45,383 nucleotides of DNA from Sphingopyxis sp. KK2 (GTDB taxonomy: Bacteria > Pseudomonadota > Alphaproteobacteria > Sphingomonadales > Sphingomonadaceae), in the NCBI RefSeq assembly GCF_001990265.1, contig NZ_LYVN01000017.1, positions 1 to 45,383 on the forward strand, given 5' to 3'. Under the pieces are notes generated by a model. That model ran no database searches. It was not told where the DNA came from and saw nothing but the letters and a program-made list of their open reading frames with translations. A program made the translations under genes and the position numbers. Each line of letters starts with the position of its first letter. The first letter of the stretch is position 1. Positions 22,496-30,901 of this stretch are shown here, in pieces.

Positions 22496-22984
22496 TTACC
22501 GATAGGGCGCGTCGGCGGCAAGATTCGCCGCGATCGCGCGTTCCCATTTGTCGCCATTGGCGAGCAGCTTGGCCTTGTCATAGAGCAGTTCCTCGCGCGT
22601 TTCGGTCGCGAATTCGAAGTTCGGCCCCTCGACCACGGCATCGACCGGGCACGCTTCCTGACAGAAGCCGCAATAGATGCACTTGGTCATGTCGATATCG
22701 TAGCGCGTCGTGCGGCGGCTGCCGTCGTCGCGGGGTTCGGCCTCGATCGTGATCGCCTGCGCCGGGCAGACCGCTTCGCACAGCTTGCACGCGATGCAGC
22801 GTTCCTCGCCGTTCGGATAGCGCCGCAGCGCATGCTCGCCGCGGAAACGCGGCGACAGCGGGTTCTTCTCAAACGGATAGTTGATCGTCGCCTTGGGCTT
22901 GAAGAAATATTTCAGCGTGAGGGCGTGCGCCTTCACGAATTCCCACAAGGTGAAGCTTTTGACGAGATGGGCGATGCTGCTCAT
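22496..22984 (-). CDS. nuoI: NADH-quinone oxidoreductase subunit I (8Fe ferredoxin-type)
   Basis: A 162-residue peripheral-arm subunit with two [4Fe-4S] clusters (N6a and N6b) that pass electrons towards NuoB. Cluster ligands are C63-I-A-C66-K-L-C69-E-A-V-C73-P and C102-I-Y-C105-G-F-C108-Q-E-A-C112-P. The frame could start 13 codons earlier, but the ATG at 22984 is preceded by AAGGTG, overlaps the nuoH stop as ATGA, and gives the usual family N terminus. Confidence 0.97.
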
Positions 22985-24171
22985 GAAGACACCTTGGCGG
23001 AACCTTGGATTTCGCTGCGGCAAATGCCGTCCCAGCTGTTTTTCGGGGGCGCAACGCTATAAGTCTTGCCCGTTTCCTTGTCGGCGATCTGCGTTATGTG
23101 GACACGTTCGCTGGCTTTACAGTCACCGTATCTCGTCAGCATCAGATAGCCGGAGATCAGGAAGATCCAGATCAGCGAGATCGGCAGGAATACCTTCCAG
23201 CCCAGCCGCATGAGCTGGTCGTAGCGATAGCGCGGGACGGTCGCCTTCACCCAGCTGAACACGAAGAAAAAGAAGAGGATCTTCGCGAAAAGCCAGATGA
23301 TGCCCGGAATGTCGAACCAGGGGATCAGGTCGATGTTGAGCGGCGGCAGCCAGCCGCCCCAGAACAGCACGGCGTTGAGCGTGCACATCAGAAGCACGTT
23401 GGCATATTCGCCGAGCCAGAAGAGCGCGAAGCTCATCGACGAATATTCGGTCTGATAACCCGCGACGAGTTCGCTTTCCGCTTCGGTCAAATCGAACGGT
23501 GCGCGCGCGGTTTCGGCGAGCGACGAGATCAGGAACATCACCGCGAGCGGGAAGAGCAGCAGGTTGAAGCCGAAGGCGTTGACGATGCCTAGCCCGTGGC
23601 CCTGCTGCGCCTTGACGATCTCGTTCATGTTGAAGCTGCCGGCGAAGAGCACGACACCGATCAGGATGAACCCGATCGACACTTCATAGGAGATCATCTG
23701 CGCCGAGGCGCGCATCGCCGAAAAGAAGGGGTATTTCGAGTTCGACGCCCAGCCCGACAGGATCACGCCGTAGACGCCGAGCGACGAAATCGCGAGGATA
23801 TAGAGCAGCCCGACGTTGATGTCGGCGAGCACCGCGCCCGAATTGAACGGGATCACCGCCCACGCCATCAGCGCCACCGTGAAGGTGATGATCGGCGCGA
23901 TCAGGAACAGCCCGCGGTTGGCCGACGTCGGGATGATCGTTTCCTGCAGGAACACTTTCAAACCGTCGGCAAACGACTGGAGCAGGCCGAAGGGGCCGAC
24001 GACGTTCGGACCGCGGCGCAGCGCGATCGCCGCCCAGATCTTGCGGTCGGCATAGATGATCATCGCGACCGCGAGCATCAGCGGCAGCGCGATGAGCAGG
24101 ATGCCTGCGATCGTCGCGACGCCCCACGCCCATGTCGGGTCCATGCCCCACGAGATGAAGGTCTCGGTCAT
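22981..24171 (-). CDS. nuoH: NADH-quinone oxidoreductase subunit H, with C-terminal extension
   Basis: A 396-residue membrane subunit that, with NuoB/D, forms the quinone chamber and links electron transfer to pumping. Conserved elements are [20 protein letters not shown] (first cytoplasmic loop), SISYE-type helices ([12 protein letters not shown]), [20 protein letters not shown] (the acidic quinone loop) and [15 protein letters not shown] near the end. After the last helix (about residue 346) there is an extra hydrophilic tail of about 48 residues with Cys351 and Cys384, which would be exposed outside the membrane. Its start overlaps the 45-residue small ORF, and its end overlaps nuoI. Confidence 0.97.
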
Positions 24172-24305
24172 TTCTTCGCGCCGTCCTGGTTCTTCCAGCC
24201 GTTATGCGGGCCGGGCTTCTTCGACTTGGTGGGGTTGAACCCACGCCAGACCGAATAGCCCATGCCGACGAGCAGTATCGAGGCGATGGCGTGTACCGGG
24301 GTCAT
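24168..24305 (-). CDS. 45-residue single-helix membrane protein embedded in nuo operon
   Basis: A small reading frame between nuoG and nuoH. Its ATG (24305) overlaps the nuoG stop as ATGA, and its TGA (24168) overlaps the nuoH ATG in the same way, so it exactly fills the gap. The protein has one membrane helix (about residues 5-20, [15 protein letters not shown]) and a short basic tail, [19 protein letters not shown]. The K-P-x3-N-G-W-[KR] motif also occurs in the 60-residue ORF between nuoF and the 220-residue gene. Perfect two-sided coupling and a sensible TM topology argue that it is translated. I do not recognise the family. An accessory or assembly protein of complex I is an inference. 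Confidence 0.75.
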
Positions 24306-26314
24306 TCTGCGGCCTCCGCAAAGGTGGCGCCATGGACCAGCTCTTCCGAGCAGAGCTGCATCGTCGGCGACGCGCGGCAGATGGCGTTGGTGAGATAGAA
24401 ATCCTTGATCGGCGACGGGATCGCGCGCGCCTCGGGCTTGGCCGGCAGCTTGGGCACCGTCCAGCCATAGTCGGCGAGACCCTCGACACCGAGCGCGGGC
24501 ACCGCAGCGATCATCGCAGCACGGCATTCGGCGAAGCTGTCGAAGCCGAGATTGACGCCGAGCGCATCGGCCAAGGCCCTGAAAATGCTCCAGTCCTCGC
24601 GCGCGTCGCCGGGGGCGAACACCGCCTTGTCGCTGCGCTGGACGCGGCCCTCGGTGTTGACCGTGGTGAAGTCCTTTTCGGTCCACGCGGCGGCGGGCAG
24701 GATGACGTCGGCGGCGTGTGCGCCCTTGTCGCCATGATGGCCGACATAGACCTTGAAGGTGTCAGGCAGCGCCGCGAAATCGACCTCGTCGGCGCCGAGG
24801 AAGAAGGCAAGTTTCGGCTTGGCCGCGATGACGTCCTTGATTCCGCCAGGCAGGCCATAGCCGAGCATCAGCGAGCCCATGCGCGCCGCCGAGAAATGGA
24901 CGACGTTATAGCCGTTCCAGCCGTCCTTTACCGCATTCACCGCCTTGGCGAGCGCGAGACCCGCGCCATGCACGCCGGGGACCGACAGCGCGCCGCCGCC
25001 GAAGACCAGCATCGGCCGCTCGGCACCCGCCAGCGCGTCGGTCACATGCTTCGGCAGCTTCGCGACCAGCGCGGCGTCGTCGCCGAGCCATTCGGCCTTG
25101 TAGGTGAGGTCGGTTTCGGGGCCGATCGCGAAGACCTTCGCGCCCTTCTTCCACACCGCCTTGCGGACGCGCGTGTTGATCAGCGGCGCTTCCCAGCGCA
25201 GGTTCGTGCCGACGAGCAGGATCACGTCGGCATTTTCGGCCTCGGCGATCGTCGTGTTGAAATTGACCGCCGACAGGCTGGTGACGTCATAATCGAGCCC
25301 GGTCTGGCGGCCTTCGAGCAGACTGCCGCCGAGCGCGGTCACCAGCGATTTCGCCGCGAACATCGTTTCGCAATCGGCAAGGTCGCCAGCGATCGCCGCG
25401 ACCGATGCGCCGGCGTTCACTGCCTTGATGGCTTCGAACGCCTCACCCCAGCTCGCTTCGACCAGCACGCCGTCCTTGCGCACATAGGGCCGGTCGAGGC
25501 GGCGACGCACGAGGCCGTCGACATGGTGGCGCGTCTTGTCGTTCGCCCATTCCTCGTTCACATCGTCGTTGACGCGCGGCAGCACGCGCAGCACCTGGCG
25601 CCCGCGCGCATCGATACGGACATTGGTGCCGACCGCGTCCATCATGTCGATGCCGAGCGTCTTGGTCAGCTCCCACGGACGCGCCTCGAACGCATAGGGC
25701 TTCGAGGTCAGCGCGCCGACCGGGCACAGGTCGACGACGTTGCCCGACAGCTCGCTTTGGACGGCATTTTCGAGATAGCTCGTGATCTGCATATTCTCGC
25801 CGCGATAGATCGCGCCGATATCCTCTACACCCGCGACTTCCTCCGCAAAGCGGACGCAGCGCGTGCACTGGATGCAGCGGGTCATCACCGTCTTGACGAT
25901 CGGACCCATATATTTTTCGGTGACCGCGCGCTTGTTCTCGTCATAGCGCGTCGCGCCGCGGCCATAGGCCACCGACTGGTCCTGCAGGTCGCATTCGCCG
26001 CCCTGGTCGCAGATCGGGCAGTCGAGCGGGTGGTTGATGAGCAGGAACTCCATCACCCCTTCGCGCGCCTTCTTCACCATCGGGCTGTCGGTCTTGATGA
26101 TCTGCCCTTCGGCGGTCGGCAGCGCACAGCTAGCCTGCGGCTTCGGCGGCCCGGGGGCGACCTCGACGAGGCACATGCGGCAATTGCCGGCGATCGACAG
26201 GCGTTCATGATAGCAGAAGCGCGGGATTTCCTTCCCCGCCAGTTCGCACGCCTGCAGGACGGTCGCGCCCTGCGGAACGTCGAGTTCTACGCCATCTACG
26301 GTAACTTTAGGCAT
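24302..26314 (-). CDS. nuoG: NADH-quinone oxidoreductase subunit G
   Basis: A 670-residue peripheral-arm subunit. The N-terminal ferredoxin domain binds [2Fe-2S] N1b (Cys34, 45, 48, 63). His94-Cys98-Cys101-Cys107 binds N5, and Cys146-Cys149-Cys152...Cys196 binds N4. A catalytically inactive molybdopterin-oxidoreductase-like domain fills the rest. It carries electrons from NuoE/F to NuoI. The frame stays open 36 codons further upstream, but MPKVTVDGVELDVPQG is the family N terminus, and AGGAAAG precedes the ATG at 26314. The start lies one base after the stop of the 220-residue secreted protein. Confidence 0.96.
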   Translation of the reverse strand: MPKVTVDGVELDVPQGATVLQACELAGKEIPRFCYHERLSIAGNCRMCLVEVAPGPPKPQASCALPTAEGQIIKTDSPMVKKAREGVMEFLLINHPLDCPICDQGGECDLQDQSVAYGRGATRYDENKRAVTEKYMGPIVKTVMTRCIQCTRCVRFAEEVAGVEDIGAIYRGENMQITSYLENAVQSELSGNVVDLCPVGALTSKPYAFEARPWELTKTLGIDMMDAVGTNVRIDARGRQVLRVLPRVNDDVNEEWANDKTRHHVDGLVRRRLDRPYVRKDGVLVEASWGEAFEAIKAVNAGASVAAIAGDLADCETMFAAKSLVTALGGSLLEGRQTGLDYDVTSLSAVNFNTTIAEAENADVILLVGTNLRWEAPLINTRVRKAVWKKGAKVFAIGPETDLTYKAEWLGDDAALVAKLPKHVTDALAGAERPMLVFGGGALSVPGVHGAGLALAKAVNAVKDGWNGYNVVHFSAARMGSLMLGYGLPGGIKDVIAAKPKLAFFLGADEVDFAALPDTFKVYVGHHGDKGAHAADVILPAAAWTEKDFTTVNTEGRVQRSDKAVFAPGDAREDWSIFRALADALGVNLGFDSFAECRAAMIAAVPALGVEGLADYGWTVPKLPAKPEARAIPSPIKDFYLTNAICRASPTMQLCSEELVHGATFAEAAE

Positions 26315-26315
26315 A

Positions 26316-26978
26316 TCAGCTTTCCTGAGCCGCCAACAGGCGGAAGCTTGCGGTGGCGACGATCGAGCGAAGGCCCACGACGTTCGTCTCCAATTTGGTG
26401 GGGCCGCTGCATAGTTTGACAACGGGCATCAACTGCTCGGCGACCCGATTTTCCTCGGTTGATCCGGGATCGGTCGCAAATAGCTTGGCGACGTCGTCGG
26501 GCGACGAGCGCGCGACGCACATCGCGACCTTGTCCGACGGGGCAAAGGTTGGCGCTTCCTTGCCCGTCGCGGCCTTCGCAAGCCGGACGTTCAGCGGCGC
26601 GGGGTCGCTCCGCAGCATCGCCTCGGCAAGCGAACCTGCGAAGGGAAGGCTGGCCGATCGCATGACTTCGCTGCGCACACCGACCTGCTTCGCGCAGCCG
26701 CCGTTCGCATTGACGAGATTCTTGAGGCCGCTGCGATAGGCCGTGGTCGTAAAATCGCCGCTCAGCAATTCGGTGACTTTGTCGTTGCTCTTGTCGGCGA
26801 CGCAGACGGCATAGCGCGCCATCGCGCGGCGCGCATCGGGTTCGGATTCCTTGACGCGATCGACATTGGGGCCGAAGCCGCGATCATTCTCGGGCCACGG
26901 CGCCGGGCGATCGTCCATGCGCGGCGCCTGCTCGGGAACCTGCGCCGCGGCCATGAGGGCGAATGCGAGGGTGATCAT
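26316..26978 (-). CDS. secreted protein with internal Cys-x35-Cys duplication, within nuo operon
   Basis: A 220-residue protein starting with a short signal-like hydrophobic stretch (MITLAFALMAAAQ), so it is probably periplasmic. Two segments are clearly duplicated. One runs from the Cys in ARYAVCVADKSNDKV to GGC, the other from the Cys in KVAMCVARSSPDDV to LCSG. Both have the pattern C-V-A-x2-S-x-D-x-V-x2-L with exactly 35 residues between the two cysteines, which may form a disulfide in each repeat. A GGAGG ribosome site precedes the ATG, and a 9-codon minicistron overlaps that ATG. The stop lies one base before nuoG. It is not a complex I subunit that I recognise; a periplasmic protein inside nuo is unexpected. 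Confidence 0.8.
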   Translation of the reverse strand: MITLAFALMAAAQVPEQAPRMDDRPAPWPENDRGFGPNVDRVKESEPDARRAMARYAVCVADKSNDKVTELLSGDFTTTAYRSGLKNLVNANGGCAKQVGVRSEVMRSASLPFAGSLAEAMLRSDPAPLNVRLAKAATGKEAPTFAPSDKVAMCVARSSPDDVAKLFATDPGSTEENRVAEQLMPVVKLCSGPTKLETNVVGLRSIVATASFRLLAAQES

Positions 26979-27004
26979 AGGACGGCCTCCATCACGATGC
27001 GCAT
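26975..27004 (-). other. 9-codon minicistron bridging two nuo-operon small genes
   Basis: An ATG at 27004 overlaps the stop of the 60-residue ORF (TGATG). It is followed by eight further codons (R-I-V-M-E-A-V-L) and a TGA at 26975 that overlaps the ATG of the 220-residue gene (ATGA). It also contains that gene's GGAGG ribosome site. Such a peptide is unlikely to have its own role; the likely effect is to hand terminating ribosomes across the gap by reinitiation. This is seen in sequence only. Confidence 0.4.
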
Positions 27005-27186
27005 CAATCGCCTCCCCCGACGCTCTGATCGTCGAACCAGCGACCCGAAGTCTTGGGCTCGGCCTTGCGCCAGCCGTTCTTCGCCGACGGCTTCGGCTCC
27101 GACGAACCCCAGAGGGCTCGCACGCCGAACGCCAGCATCGCCACGACGACGATGAGCAAAAGGCCGAGGCGCTCGGCGTCGGTCAC
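27004..27186 (-). CDS. 60-residue single-helix membrane protein embedded in nuo operon
   Basis: It starts with GTG at 27186, overlapping the nuoF stop as GTGA. Residues about 6-25 form one membrane helix ([20 protein letters not shown]), followed by a polar tail with [20 protein letters not shown]. The tail repeats the K-P-x3-N-G-W-[KR] motif of the 45-residue ORF between nuoG and nuoH, at the same position relative to the helix, so the two are probably paralogues. The frame ends in VGGGD. Coupled placement, a sensible membrane topology and the shared motif support a real gene. The function is unknown; an accessory subunit or assembly role in complex I is inferred from context only. Confidence 0.75.
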
Positions 27187-28472
27187 TCGGCAGCCTCGAG
27201 TGCGCCGCCATTCTCGCGGATGCGGCGTTCGATTTCGGGGCGGAAATGCTTGATCAGGCCCTGGATCGGCCACGCCGCCGCGTCGCCGAGCGCGCAGATG
27301 GTATGGCCTTCGACCTGCTTGGTCACGTCGTACAGCGTATCGATCTCGCTGATGTCGGCGTCGCCGGTGCGCAGCCGTTCCATCACGCGCCACATCCAGC
27401 CGGTGCCTTCGCGGCACGGCGTGCACTGGCCGCAGCTTTCATGCTTATAGAAATAGCTGATGCGGCTGATCGCCTGGACAACGTCGGTCGACTTGTCCAT
27501 CACGATCGCGGCGGCGGTGCCGAGGCCCGATCCGACGGCTTTCAGCCCGTCGAAGTCCATCGGGCAGTCCATGATCTCCGCCGCCGGAACCAGCGGGACC
27601 GACGAACCGCCGGGGATGACCGCGAGCAGATTGTCCCAACCGCCGCGGATTCCGCCGCAATGGCGGTCGATCAGTTCGCGGAAGGTGATGCTCATCTCCT
27701 CCTCGACCACGCACGGCGTGTTCACATGCCCGCTGATCTGGAAGAGCTTGGTGCCCTTATTGTTCTCGCGCCCGAAGGAGGAAAACCAGGTCGCGCCGCG
27801 CCGCAGGATCGTCGGGACGACCGCGATCGATTCGACATTGTTGACCGTCGTCGGGCAGCCATAAAGACCCGCACCCGCCGGAAACGGCGGTTTCAGGCGC
27901 GGCTGGCCCTTCTTGCCCTCGAGGCTTTCGATCATCGCGGTTTCTTCGCCGCAGATATAGGCGCCGGCGCCGCGATGGACGAAGACGTCGAAGTCGTACC
28001 CCGACTTGGCGGCGTTCTTGCCAAGCAGGCCGGCGTCATAGGCCTCCTGCACCGCCGCGAAGAGCGTCTCGGCCTCGCGGATGAATTCGCCGCGGATGTA
28101 GATGTACGCGGCACGCGCGCGCATCGCGTAACCGGCGATCAGCGCGCCCTCGATCAGCTTGTGCGGGTCGTGGCGAATGATCTCGCGGTCCTTGCACGAA
28201 CCGGGCTCGGATTCGTCGGCGTTGATCACGAGGAAGCTCGGGCGGTCGGCGCGCGGCTCCTTGGGCATGAACGACCATTTCAGGCCCGTCGGGAAGCCCG
28301 CGCCGCCGCGGCCGCGCAGCCCCGACGCCTTGATCGTCTCGATGATCGCGTCCTGTCCCGCGGCCATCAGATCCTTGGTCTTGTCCCAATCGCCGCGCCC
28401 CTGCGCGGATTTCAGGTTCCACGGCTGGAAGCCGTAGATGTTGGTAAAGATGCGATCCTTGTCGGCGAGCAT
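27183..28472 (-). CDS. nuoF: NADH-quinone oxidoreductase subunit F (NADH- and FMN-binding)
   Basis: A 429-residue subunit that oxidises NADH. Motifs are [13 protein letters not shown] (residues 54-66, NADH/FMN glycine loop), [19 protein letters not shown] (FMN site) and [15 protein letters not shown] near residue 350, which together with a later Cys binds [4Fe-4S] N3. The reading frame extends upstream, but the ATG at 28472 gives the family start [14 protein letters not shown]. It overlaps the stop of the 58-residue ORF as TGATG and has GGAAAG upstream. Confidence 0.96.
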
Positions 28473-28648
28473 CAGCGCTTCTTTCCGAAAAGCCGTTCGG
28501 CGAGGAAATAGATGACGAGGATGATCGCGACGACGATCGCGATCTGCGCCAGGTTGATCGCGACCTTGGCCGCGACGGACAGCAGCACGCACGCCACGAT
28601 CACGAAGACCAGCAGCACGATCAGCTGGATGAGTTTCTGAACGTTCAT
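28472..28648 (-). CDS. 58-residue two-helix membrane protein embedded in nuo operon
   Basis: This small frame lies between nuoE and nuoF. Its ATG (28648) overlaps the nuoE stop as TAATG, and its TGA overlaps the nuoF ATG as TGATG. The protein begins [20 protein letters not shown] and continues with a second hydrophobic stretch ([17 protein letters not shown]), ending in a basic ERLFGKKR. That gives two membrane helices or one long hairpin, with a positive C terminus expected to be cytoplasmic. It has no K-P-x3-N-G-W motif and so is not obviously related to the other two small nuo ORFs. The coupling at both ends and the absence of polar interruptions support expression. Its function is unknown. 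Confidence 0.7.
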
Positions 28649-29316
28649 TACCAGGCCTTCCGGTAATCATGGTTGGCCTTGACCATCTCGACGAGCGTCG
28701 TCGGACCGCCCTGCGGCTCGCTGGTGTGGCGATCGGCAAGCTGCGTTCCCGCCTTCGGCGTCTCGCCAGCGGCCAGCGCGTCGAGGATGCGGTCCATCTT
28801 GTCGTAATCGAGGTCTTCGTAATTATCGTCGTTGATCTGGACCATCGGCGCGTTGGTGCAGGTGCCCATGCACTCAACCTCGGTCAACGTGAACAGGCCG
28901 TCGGGCGTCGTCTTGCCCTTGACCATGCCGCGGTTCTTGCACGCCGCCATCACATCGTCCGACCCGCGCAACAGGCACGGCGTCGTGCCGCACACCTGGA
29001 CATGATAGCGACCGACCGGCGCCATATTGTACATGGTGTAGAAGGTCGCGACCTCATAGGCGCGGATGAAAGGCATATCGAGCTGCGAGGCGACATATTC
29101 GATCACCGGGACGGGCAGCCAGCCCTGCGTGTTCGTCTCGGCCCCGACCTGCCGCTGCGCGAGGTCGAGCAAGGGCATCACCGCCGAACGCTGGCGCCCG
29201 GCAGGGTAGCGCGCGATGACGGTCTTTGCCTTTTCGGCATTTTCGGCGGTCCATGCAAACGCGCCCCAGCGCGCGCGGACTTCGGCCTCATCGGGAATTT
29301 GGGGTGCGTCGGCCAT
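28648..29316 (-). CDS. nuoE: NADH-quinone oxidoreductase subunit E
   Basis: A 222-residue thioredoxin-fold subunit that binds [2Fe-2S] cluster N1a through Cys109, Cys114 (VCGTTPC), Cys149 and Cys153 (CMGTC). It works with NuoF in the NADH-oxidising module. The family motif [16 protein letters not shown] is present. The C-terminal 40 residues after the core ([20 protein letters not shown]...) are a longer tail than in E. coli NuoE but are common in alphaproteobacteria. Its start overlaps the stop of the NTF2-like gene as TAATG. Confidence 0.96.
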
Positions 29317-29648
29317 TAGCGGACAAACTCCACACGCGACACCTTGTCGCCTTCAAAACTATAGATGGACATGACCTCGAACGGGTCGGCCTCCGGTGAG
29401 CGGACAACCTTTTCATGCAGGACGACGAAGTCGCCCAGCGTATAGCCCGACAGGATTTCGGCGCGGTTTTGCGGAAATTCCGCGAACATCGCCTTCAGCC
29501 CTTCACGCACGCCTGCCTTACCGTCCCGAACGACCGCGCCGCGATAGCCGGCCTCCGCCGCATCGTCGGTCATCAGCGCGACATAGGCGTCGGCGTCCTG
29601 CGCATTGTAGTGCGCTATCATCGTCTCGGCGACTGCCAGCTTGCTCAC
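29316..29648 (-). CDS. NTF2/SnoaL-like protein within nuo operon
   Basis: A 110-residue protein with the cone-shaped NTF2-like fold signature: an N-terminal helix pair ([21 protein letters not shown]), [25 protein letters not shown] and a C-terminal beta part with VVLHEKVV and [18 protein letters not shown]. Such domains act as small enzymes (isomerases, hydrolases) or binding proteins; none of the known catalytic sets can be read with certainty. The start chosen is GTG at 29648, which overlaps the nuoD stop as GTGA and has GGGGAG upstream; an in-frame GTG at 29657 is possible. It sits between nuoD and nuoE and is coupled to both. A role in complex I is unproven. Confidence 0.8.
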
Positions 29649-30901
29649 CGGTCGCACTCCCCAAACACGACGTCGATCGCGCCGATGATTGCGGTGGTGT
29701 CGGCGAGCATATGGCCCTTCGACATCATGTCCATCGCCTGCAAATGCGAAAACGCCGTCGGGCGGATCTTGCAGCGGTATGGCTTGTTGCTGCCGTCGCT
29801 GACCAGATAGACGCCGAATTCGCCCTTGGGGCTTTCGGTCGCGACATAGACTTCGCCCGCGGGGACGTGGAAGCCCTCGGTGTAGAGCTTGAAGTGATGG
29901 ATCAGCGATTCCATCGAGCTCTTCATCTCGGCGCGCTTCGGCGGCACGACCTTACGGTCGAGGCTGGCAACGGGGCCCTTCGGCATTTCGTTGATGCACT
30001 GGAGGATGATGCGCGCCGACTGATAGACTTCCTGCACGCGGACCATGAAGCGGTCGTAGCAGTCGCCGCGCGTGCCGACGGGGATGTCGAAATCCATCTT
30101 GGCATAGGCGTCATAGGGCTGCGACTTGCGCAGGTCCCACGCGATGCCGCTGCCACGGATCATCGGACCCGAGAAGCCCCATGCGAGCGCGTCTTCCTTG
30201 CTGACCGTCGCGATGTCGACGTTGCGCTGCTTGAAGATGCGGTTATCGATGACGAGGCTCATCGCGTCGCCGAACAGCTTCGGCAGGCGCTTTTCGCACC
30301 ATTCGCCGATGTCGTAGAGCAGTTTCTCCGGCACGTCCTGATGCACGCCGCCGGGGCGGAACCACGCCGAATGCATGCGCGCGCCCGAGGCACGTTCGAA
30401 GAAGTTGAGACAATCCTCGCGCAGTTCGAACACCCACAGGTTCGGCGTCATCGCGCCGACGTCCATGACGTGCGATCCGATGTTGAGCATGTGGTTGCAG
30501 ATGCGCGTCAGCTCGGCGAACAGCACCCGCAGATATTGCGCGCGATCGGGCACTTCGAGATCGAGCAGCTTTTCGATGGCCAGCACGTACGAGTGCTCCA
30601 TGCCGAGCGGCGAGCAATAGTCGAGCCGGTCGAAATAGGGCAAAGCCTGCAGATAGGTCTTGTACTCGATCAGCTTCTCGGTGCCGCGATGGAGCAGCCC
30701 GACGTGCGGGTCGACACGCTCGATGATCTCGCCATCAAGCTCCATCACCATGCGCAGCACGCCGTGCGCTGCCGGGTGCTGCGGACCGAAGTTGATGGTG
30801 TAGTTGGTGACGGTCTGGTCGCCCGCGGTATCGGCGGTGTCGACCGGATAGCCGGTGAACATGTCGCTGCCGTGGTGCTTCACATAAGGGGAGTCGGTCA
30901 T
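29645..30901 (-). CDS. nuoD: NADH-quinone oxidoreductase subunit D
   Basis: A 418-residue subunit derived from the large subunit of NiFe hydrogenases but without the metal cysteines. It lines the quinone-reduction site together with NuoB. Recognisable motifs are [15 protein letters not shown] (His of the quinone pocket), [44 protein letters not shown] and the C-terminal [15 protein letters not shown] leader of about 25 residues precedes the conserved core. It is translated as a separate protein from NuoC (4-base overlap), unlike the fused NuoCD of E. coli. Confidence 0.97.

Follow-up and report, generated by a model that had tools for sequence, protein, structure and literature searches.

Two predicted one-helix microproteins at nuo gene junctions of Sphingopyxis: putative accessory peptides of complex I in the Sphingomonadaceae

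Introduction

CydX of cytochrome bd, and CcoQ and CcoM of the cbb3 oxidase, are proteins of about 30–60 residues with a single helix, made from or near the operon of their respiratory enzyme. Mitochondrial complex I has extra subunits with one helix, which would be a parallel to the microproteins described here if our reading of them is correct. In Paracoccus denitrificans, complex I has the supernumerary subunits NDUFS4, NDUFS6, NDUFA12 and CI-PIMT; the description cited here assigns NDUFS4, NDUFA12 and PIMT to the hydrophilic domain or heel and presents none of the four as a one-helix membrane peptide (PMC11522691). Overlapping genes form a further point of comparison. Termination–reinitiation is reported to need short overlaps, coupling being almost abolished at about 20 nt, and short overlaps to be enriched among genes for the subunits of complexes (PMC10666635).

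The present study concerns two very small genes in the nuo operon of Sphingopyxis sp. KK2, one between nuoF and nuoG (FG) and one between nuoG and nuoH (GH). The two microproteins have no sequence match to CydX, CcoQ or CcoM, which belong to other enzymes. Like the Paracoccus subunits (PMC11522691), FG and GH would be extra, lineage-limited parts of an alphaproteobacterial complex I; unlike them, they are encoded at nuo junctions of Sphingomonadaceae and predicted to have a single helix. Overlaps of the ATGA and TGATG kinds are found both here and in coupled gene pairs described previously, but the latter, in the studies cited, are ordinary gene pairs (PMC10666635, PMC6728339), whereas the present ORFs are tiny, specific to a lineage and inserted between core genes. 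No description of nuo microproteins in sphingomonads was found in searches of an open-licence literature library. The two probably belong to a small family without an earlier name, and may be unrecognised, putative accessory parts of complex I.

Results

Two microprotein genes are threaded into the nuo operon

The window, that is, the whole stretch of DNA analysed, is 45,383 nucleotides long (contig NZ_LYVN01000017.1, positions 1–45,383), and the nuo operon and both microprotein genes lie on its minus strand. A first-pass annotation, made from the letters of the sequence without database searches, had proposed a 60-codon ORF with a GTG start coupled to nuoF by a GTGA overlap, and this was confirmed. 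The FG gene (27004–27186, minus strand) starts at a GTG inside the nuoF stop codon (GAGTGACC) and encodes a hydrophobic stretch at approximately residues 7–25, followed by a tail. The upstream gene nuoF (27183–28472, minus strand) has 429 codons from MLADKDRIF, and its TGA forms the GTGA overlap with the FG start. The GH gene (24168–24305, minus strand) has an ATG start and 45 codons, and overlaps both the nuoG stop and the nuoH start by 4 nt; the sequence AATGACC is found at both of its ends, with the ATG in the nuoG stop and the GH stop in the nuoH start. On one side lies nuoG (24302–26314, minus strand; 670 codons from MPKVTVDG), the TGA of which overlaps the GH start as ATGA. On the other lies nuoH (22981–24171, minus strand), the ATG of which overlaps the GH stop as ATGA and the N-terminus of which is of the type that mostly accompanies GH in Sphingopyxis. 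The names nuoF and nuoG follow the first-pass annotation.

The nuoF–nuoG junction has a second occupant, an ORF of 220 codons (26316–26978, minus strand) with a start that by eye resembles a signal peptide, and for which a Pfam search gave no match. A 9-codon mini-ORF joins FG to it (TGATG ... CTATGATC). A hydrophobic ORF of 58 codons between nuoE and nuoF (28472–28648, minus strand; TAATG and TGATG overlaps) was rejected as a family member, the NGW motif being absent. A SnoaL-like ORF (29316–29657, minus strand; PF12680, E = 6e-13) lies between two genes taken to be nuoD and nuoE.

Both microproteins combine a hydrophobic stretch with an N-G-W tail

The first-pass annotation had described a single helix followed by a polar tail in both proteins. 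Indeed, each has one hydrophobic stretch, predicted to be helical, with an N-G-W tail after it, and the claimed motifs are present as written and at equivalent distances: KPSAKNGWR in FG, with N at residue 37, and KPGPHNGWK in GH, with N at residue 35. In the six frames of the window the pattern N[GN]W[KRQM] occurs three times, in FG, in GH and in one unrelated frame. A larger set of 23,198 distinct ORFs of at least 35 residues (2,548,313 residues), which comes mostly from nuo loci and does not give a genome-wide rate, holds 42 occurrences of KPxxxNGW[KR] and 58 of N[GN]W[KRQM][NK], all of them in FG, GH and related ORFs; a looser form of the motif had three additional matches in other ORFs of the set. 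N-[GN]-W starts at residue 34–37 in all 15 members scored, themselves found partly by this motif, and its N and W do not vary in an alignment of 16 members from several genera. The GH alignment contains 15 invariant positions among 22 sequences.

The hydrophobic stretch lies within the first 27 residues in each of the 15 scored members. Their best 19-residue Kyte–Doolittle window starts at residue 1–9 and has a mean of 1.35–2.96; the FG and GH proteins of the analysed DNA reach 2.57 and 1.44, respectively, and several GH members fall below 1.6, the usual hydropathy threshold. Since the hydropathy of GH is modest, membrane insertion is itself a prediction. An AlphaFold2 model of GH consists of a helix at residues 3–23 and a low-confidence tail (pLDDT 87–90 at residues 1–20, then 68, 55 and 51), and says nothing on docking. 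Lysine and arginine are absent ahead of the hydrophobic stretch in 12 of the 15 members, with one such residue in three FG proteins. Under the positive-inside rule this near-absence of charge before the stretch, with K/R residues after it, predicts an N-out, C-in topology.

Comparison of FG and GH with Pfam and PHROGs returned no family. The best NCBIfam matches, TatA (13.2 against a cut-off of 121 bits) and PsbN (11.5 against 70 bits), scored far below the curated cut-offs, and both identities were rejected. The best match in profile searches of the PDB had E = 0.14, and the matches listed included no chain of complex I. A HIG1 domain was rejected as not significant (2lom_A, E = 0.43 and 0.14), and the only small oxidase chain among the matches listed, 5djq_N, presumably the cbb3 subunit CcoM, was at chance level (E = 3.2–3.3).

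FG and GH are probably related

The direct similarity between FG and GH is weak and goes little beyond the short motif, and the tests of it gave mixed results. An hhalign comparison of the two returned P = 1.6e-4 with a probability of 50%, and column permutation gave one result in 4001 as good (8 GH and 3 FG rows, over a window chosen on the motif). A plain GH profile placed FG at E = 0.54 or worse, below several chance matches; for the FG profile, GH was the best non-FG match, at 0.39. A profile of GH with four diverged members and no FG was also run against the 23,198 ORFs. After its own members this profile ranked first an ORF from another genus (genome G185; E = 3.4e-4) and next four FG proteins (0.016–0.064). 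The window's own FG scored 0.25, slightly worse than an unrelated ORF (0.23), and the matches listed did not include the sixth FG.

Relatives that bridge the two groups make kinship likely, short of proof, and the first-pass view of the microproteins as relatives is thus probably right. The F-G members of genomes G185 and G325 bear a motif of the G-H type (GPHNNW and GPENGW), and the nuoG–nuoH junction of genome G007 (locus L055) holds a tandem second GH-like ORF of 73 residues with the motif GPHNNWRNPE, in which GPHNNWRN begins at residue 37, the FG spacing. This tandem copy matches GH with P = 2.5e-9 and FG with P = 2.2e-4. A GGGD C-terminus common to FG and the G185 member was set aside as a sign of homology, and is read as the translated Shine–Dalgarno-like GGAGG of the next gene.

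GH is widespread, and FG rare, within Sphingopyxis

Of 80 Sphingopyxis genomes, 51 gave a strong match to the GH profile (E ≤ 1.2e-25). Three more had weak matches and were not counted as carriers, and the 29 genomes without a strong match include incomplete ones. Fifty of the 51 strong matches were checked (G115 is the remaining one), and all lie between nuoG and nuoH. The FG profile matched six of the 80 genomes, each time with a start at the nuoF end; all six also carry GH, a co-occurrence that has no weight after tree correction. A profile scan of named genomes matched GH at 37 loci, two of them weakly and partially (L189 and L190); by title, the other 35 comprise 30 from Sphingopyxis, three from a Sphingomonadaceae or Sphingomonadales bacterium and two from a Proteobacteria or Alphaproteobacteria bacterium.

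Sixty-one loci of the genus were read, the window included, and 60 of these have both nuoG and nuoH. GH is present in 44 of the 60 and absent from 16, a share that is biased upwards because six of the 61 loci (L135, L149–L153) were picked by their GH match, so that the true GH-less share is higher. The gene begins within the nuoG stop codon at 36 of the 44 GH loci. At the remaining eight, an insert of about 270 nt stands ahead of GH; in seven of these the insert is an ORF of 91–93 residues. GH ends in the nuoH start in 38 of the 44. At the 16 loci that lack it, nuoG and nuoH overlap by 4 nt in six, are 5 or 20 nt apart in two, and enclose another coupled ORF, in most cases repeat-like by eye, in eight. 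The idea that both microproteins always occur together did not hold: 38 of the 44 GH-bearing loci are without FG, and genomes G185 and G325, from other genera, have an F-G member and no G-H member.

Relatives are confined to two nuo junctions in the Sphingomonadaceae

The region from the nuoF–nuoG to the nuoG–nuoH junction was taken from 80 further Sphingomonadaceae genera, one species each. Members are absent from most of the 79 loci that have nuoG and nuoH. G196, G136 and G181 proved to have diverged G-H members, and G185 an F-G member (MSGEQIFLAVSALFIVLVLLKVFVFTKKPIQPGPHNNWKRD...) with an ATGA start in the nuoF stop and the motif PGPHNNWKR. A broad profile (A6), made from the diverged members, with G185 as one row, and the Sphingopyxis members, was run on 397 genomes of the family and 196 of the order. 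Three strong members from outside the profile were recovered (G328, G549 and G551; E from 1e-12 to 2e-18), all at nuoG–nuoH, together with a weaker F-G member in G325 (SGPENGWMN, E = 7.4e-5; not an A6 row), where nuoG and nuoH overlap by 4 nt and no G-H member is present. All strong A6 matches (E ≤ 1e-10) in other genera lie at nuoF–nuoG or nuoG–nuoH. In the KK2 genome a search with FG gave only chance matches besides FG itself, and profiles A6 and A7 found the two nuo junction sites and nothing else. Members thus occur in eight of about 96 genera, Sphingopyxis and seven other Sphingomonadaceae, at two junctions only. They are patchy within genera as well: the first species read of genera g41 and g104 is without a member, and other species of each have one.

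In the profile search of other families of the order, the best match (E = 5.9e-4) was not beside nuo. Among 289 class-level genomes, two weak matches at E ≤ 0.001 appeared besides the own genome, neither beside nuo. Weak matches in G413, G184, G135, G238, G232, G241, G537, G640 and G793 were rejected, having no adjoining nuo gene and frames that are not member-like. The whole-genome profile search scores part of the first-look candidates (17 of 117 and 24 of 124 in the own genome), and absence from it is therefore not proof. We regard the one-helix NGW proteins as a genuine sequence family that is tied to nuo at every place checked and is limited, to date, to the Sphingomonadaceae; the searches of the order and class gave nothing convincing beyond that bacterial family. 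The earlier proposal of a group tied to the complex I operon accordingly stands for the places checked (50 of the 51 strong GH matches, all six FG matches and the strong matches in other genera); its extension to alphaproteobacterial nuo operons at large is not supported, the 289 class genomes having given two weak matches without adjoining nuo.

Both reading frames are under purifying constraint

Among relatives, amino-acid changes are fewer than silent ones in both frames. The median pairwise Nei–Gojobori dN/dS is 0.16 for GH (44 sequences, 941 pairs) and 0.34 for FG (6 sequences, 15 pairs; pooled pN/pS 0.51), the pairs not being independent in either set; the medians for nuoH and nuoG are 0.12 and 0.11. 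GH requires five state changes on a nuoFGH tree, the simplest history being a single gain with about four losses; the figure is likewise five for FG and rises to 14 for any F-G insert. When the tree is built from nuoF+nuoG (55 rows), seven changes are required for GH. FG is the weaker case of the two, because it is patchy, less conserved and located in a hot spot.

GH tends to accompany one type of NuoH N-terminus in Sphingopyxis

The first 16 residues of NuoH fall into two main, sharply different types within Sphingopyxis. The FISWGMD type accompanies 37 of 40 GH carriers compared with 2 of 15 non-carriers (Fisher p = 3.5e-8 without tree correction; five unclassed loci are left out). With tree correction, three to four of six independent pairs remain (p = 0.125), and an opposed pair arises in few of 200 pairings. 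Outside the genus the FISWGMD type is also found without GH, at junctions with other ORFs (L234, L244, L260), and diverged members stand beside other NuoH types (L231, L281, L294, L310, L330, L331). Co-adaptation of NuoH and GH as the sole reading was dropped in view of these other types, the tree-corrected value and a DNA boundary, the difference between the types fading approximately 60 nt into nuoH. Linkage or recombination at the junction accounts for the association at least as well.

The nuo junctions accept unrelated ORFs

The gap between nuoG and nuoH exceeds 60 nt in 26 of the 79 other-genus loci. In 25 of these 26, one or two ORFs form an end-to-end chain that links up with both neighbouring genes: all joints are overlaps in 24 of the chains, and the remaining one leaves 1 nt free before nuoH. 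Shuffled inserts with their ends kept gave 5.3 such chains on average, compared with the 25 observed; the count used starts at −3/0 only, accepted −1 to 9 nt before nuoH and extrapolated the start of that gene from the alignment. Several of the nuoG–nuoH ORFs in L225–L304 look like translated dispersed repeats. Copy number comes from one genus case, G002, where the junction ORF has 13 matches in the genome, including itself and its own inverted match, in about ten other places. Inserts seem to be kept only when they are translated through, which would explain the odd repeat-like ORFs. Because the junctions also admit unrelated ORFs, some of them repeat-like, a location there is not in itself proof of a role.

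Discussion

Our favoured reading, held with confidence that is about evenly balanced, is that FG and GH form one small family of single-pass membrane microproteins, most likely facultative accessory or assembly peptides of complex I. Ribosomes re-initiating at the ATGA or GTGA overlap would produce each of them immediately ahead of NuoG or NuoH, and this coupled synthesis makes an accessory or assembly peptide the simplest role. The N-terminal hydrophobic stretch is predicted to span the membrane with the N-terminus outside, leaving the K/R-rich N-[GN]-W tail in the cytoplasm beside the hydrophilic arm. The microprotein may insert beside the nascent membrane arm, and its NGW tail might dock where the arms meet the membrane and help or stabilise assembly. 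GH is missing from 16 of 60 Sphingopyxis nuo loci and from most of the 79 other-genus loci, and is therefore at most a facultative accessory; a core subunit of complex I was rejected on the same counts.

One competing explanation is that junction DNA survives only as ORFs that overlap their neighbours, the peptide itself mattering little, and that the NGW ORFs are old passengers of this kind. The 25 of 26 end-to-end chains, against 5.3 from shuffles, make such a coupling relay a live rival, chiefly for FG, where even the gap from FG to position 26978 is bridged by the 9-codon ORF. All eight GH-less Sphingopyxis loci with a longer gap hold another coupled ORF, mostly repeat-like by eye, and the near-loss of coupling at about 20 nt in the study cited above (PMC10666635) points the same way. 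A relay, however, needs no conserved peptide, and GH has a median dN/dS of 0.16 and 15 invariant positions in 22 sequences, with N and W invariant in 16 members; for the NGW ORFs we consider the relay rather unlikely. The kinship on which the favoured reading builds could also be illusory, FG and GH being one-helix ORFs of separate origin whose short NGW tails arose by convergence. The profile matches between them are weak, the VWRGFNP segment is missing from FG and the tail after the motif differs, but the F-G members with a GPHNNW or GPENGW motif (G185, G325) and the tandem G007 copy, which has FG spacing and matches both groups (P = 2.5e-9 to GH, 2.2e-4 to FG), render convergence unlikely.

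It is also conceivable that these small membrane proteins borrow the nuo operon for respiration-matched expression and act elsewhere, for instance with a different respiratory enzyme or in the response to membrane stress. Their facultative distribution would fit, as would the PDB searches, in which the best E value was 0.14 and the listed matches include no complex I chain. Against this, the strong matches checked in eight genera are all at nuoF–nuoG or nuoG–nuoH and none is in another operon, and action elsewhere appears quite unlikely. A wider proposal, tentative and itself somewhat doubtful, is that new genes are bred at the nuo junctions of Sphingomonadaceae, and that the NGW microproteins are a product that turned into a one-helix complex I accessory, moving between F-G and G-H and, within Sphingopyxis, being inherited together with a NuoH N-terminus that matches it. 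Landed DNA, dispersed repeats included, would be kept only as a joined ORF because the translation of nuoG and nuoH must stay coupled.

If the accessory-peptide reading is correct, the complex I of bacteria includes accessory peptides with one helix that are specific to a lineage and missing from the curated libraries searched, and the family offers natural presence/absence species pairs for the study of such a peptide. The rule of end-to-end ORF chains, if true, would give a concrete way for inserted DNA, including repeats, to turn into translated ORFs within a core operon.

Several other occupants of these junctions were observed. One or more ORFs of 190–270 residues with a signal-peptide-like start and spaced cysteines (by eye) are found at many nuoF–nuoG junctions (L039–L058, L114–L153, L225–L304), the ORF at 26316–26978 of the window among them; Pfam gave no match for the two tested. 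A hydrophobic protein of 77–96 residues, probably with two helices (by eye), occurs at nuoG–nuoH, sometimes before GH (L041, L046, L120, L125, L149, L153, L234, L244, L253, L257, L271, L294); the one tested, from L125, was without a Pfam match. Retropepsin-like aspartyl protease ORFs are coupled at nuoG–nuoH in L264 and L285 (PF13650, E = 4.5e-7 for the L285 protein). Finally, in L059 a DUF4160 and DUF2442 gene pair lies between nuoF and nuoG, and a similar pair is seen by eye in L062, the genomes of both loci belonging to another family of the order.
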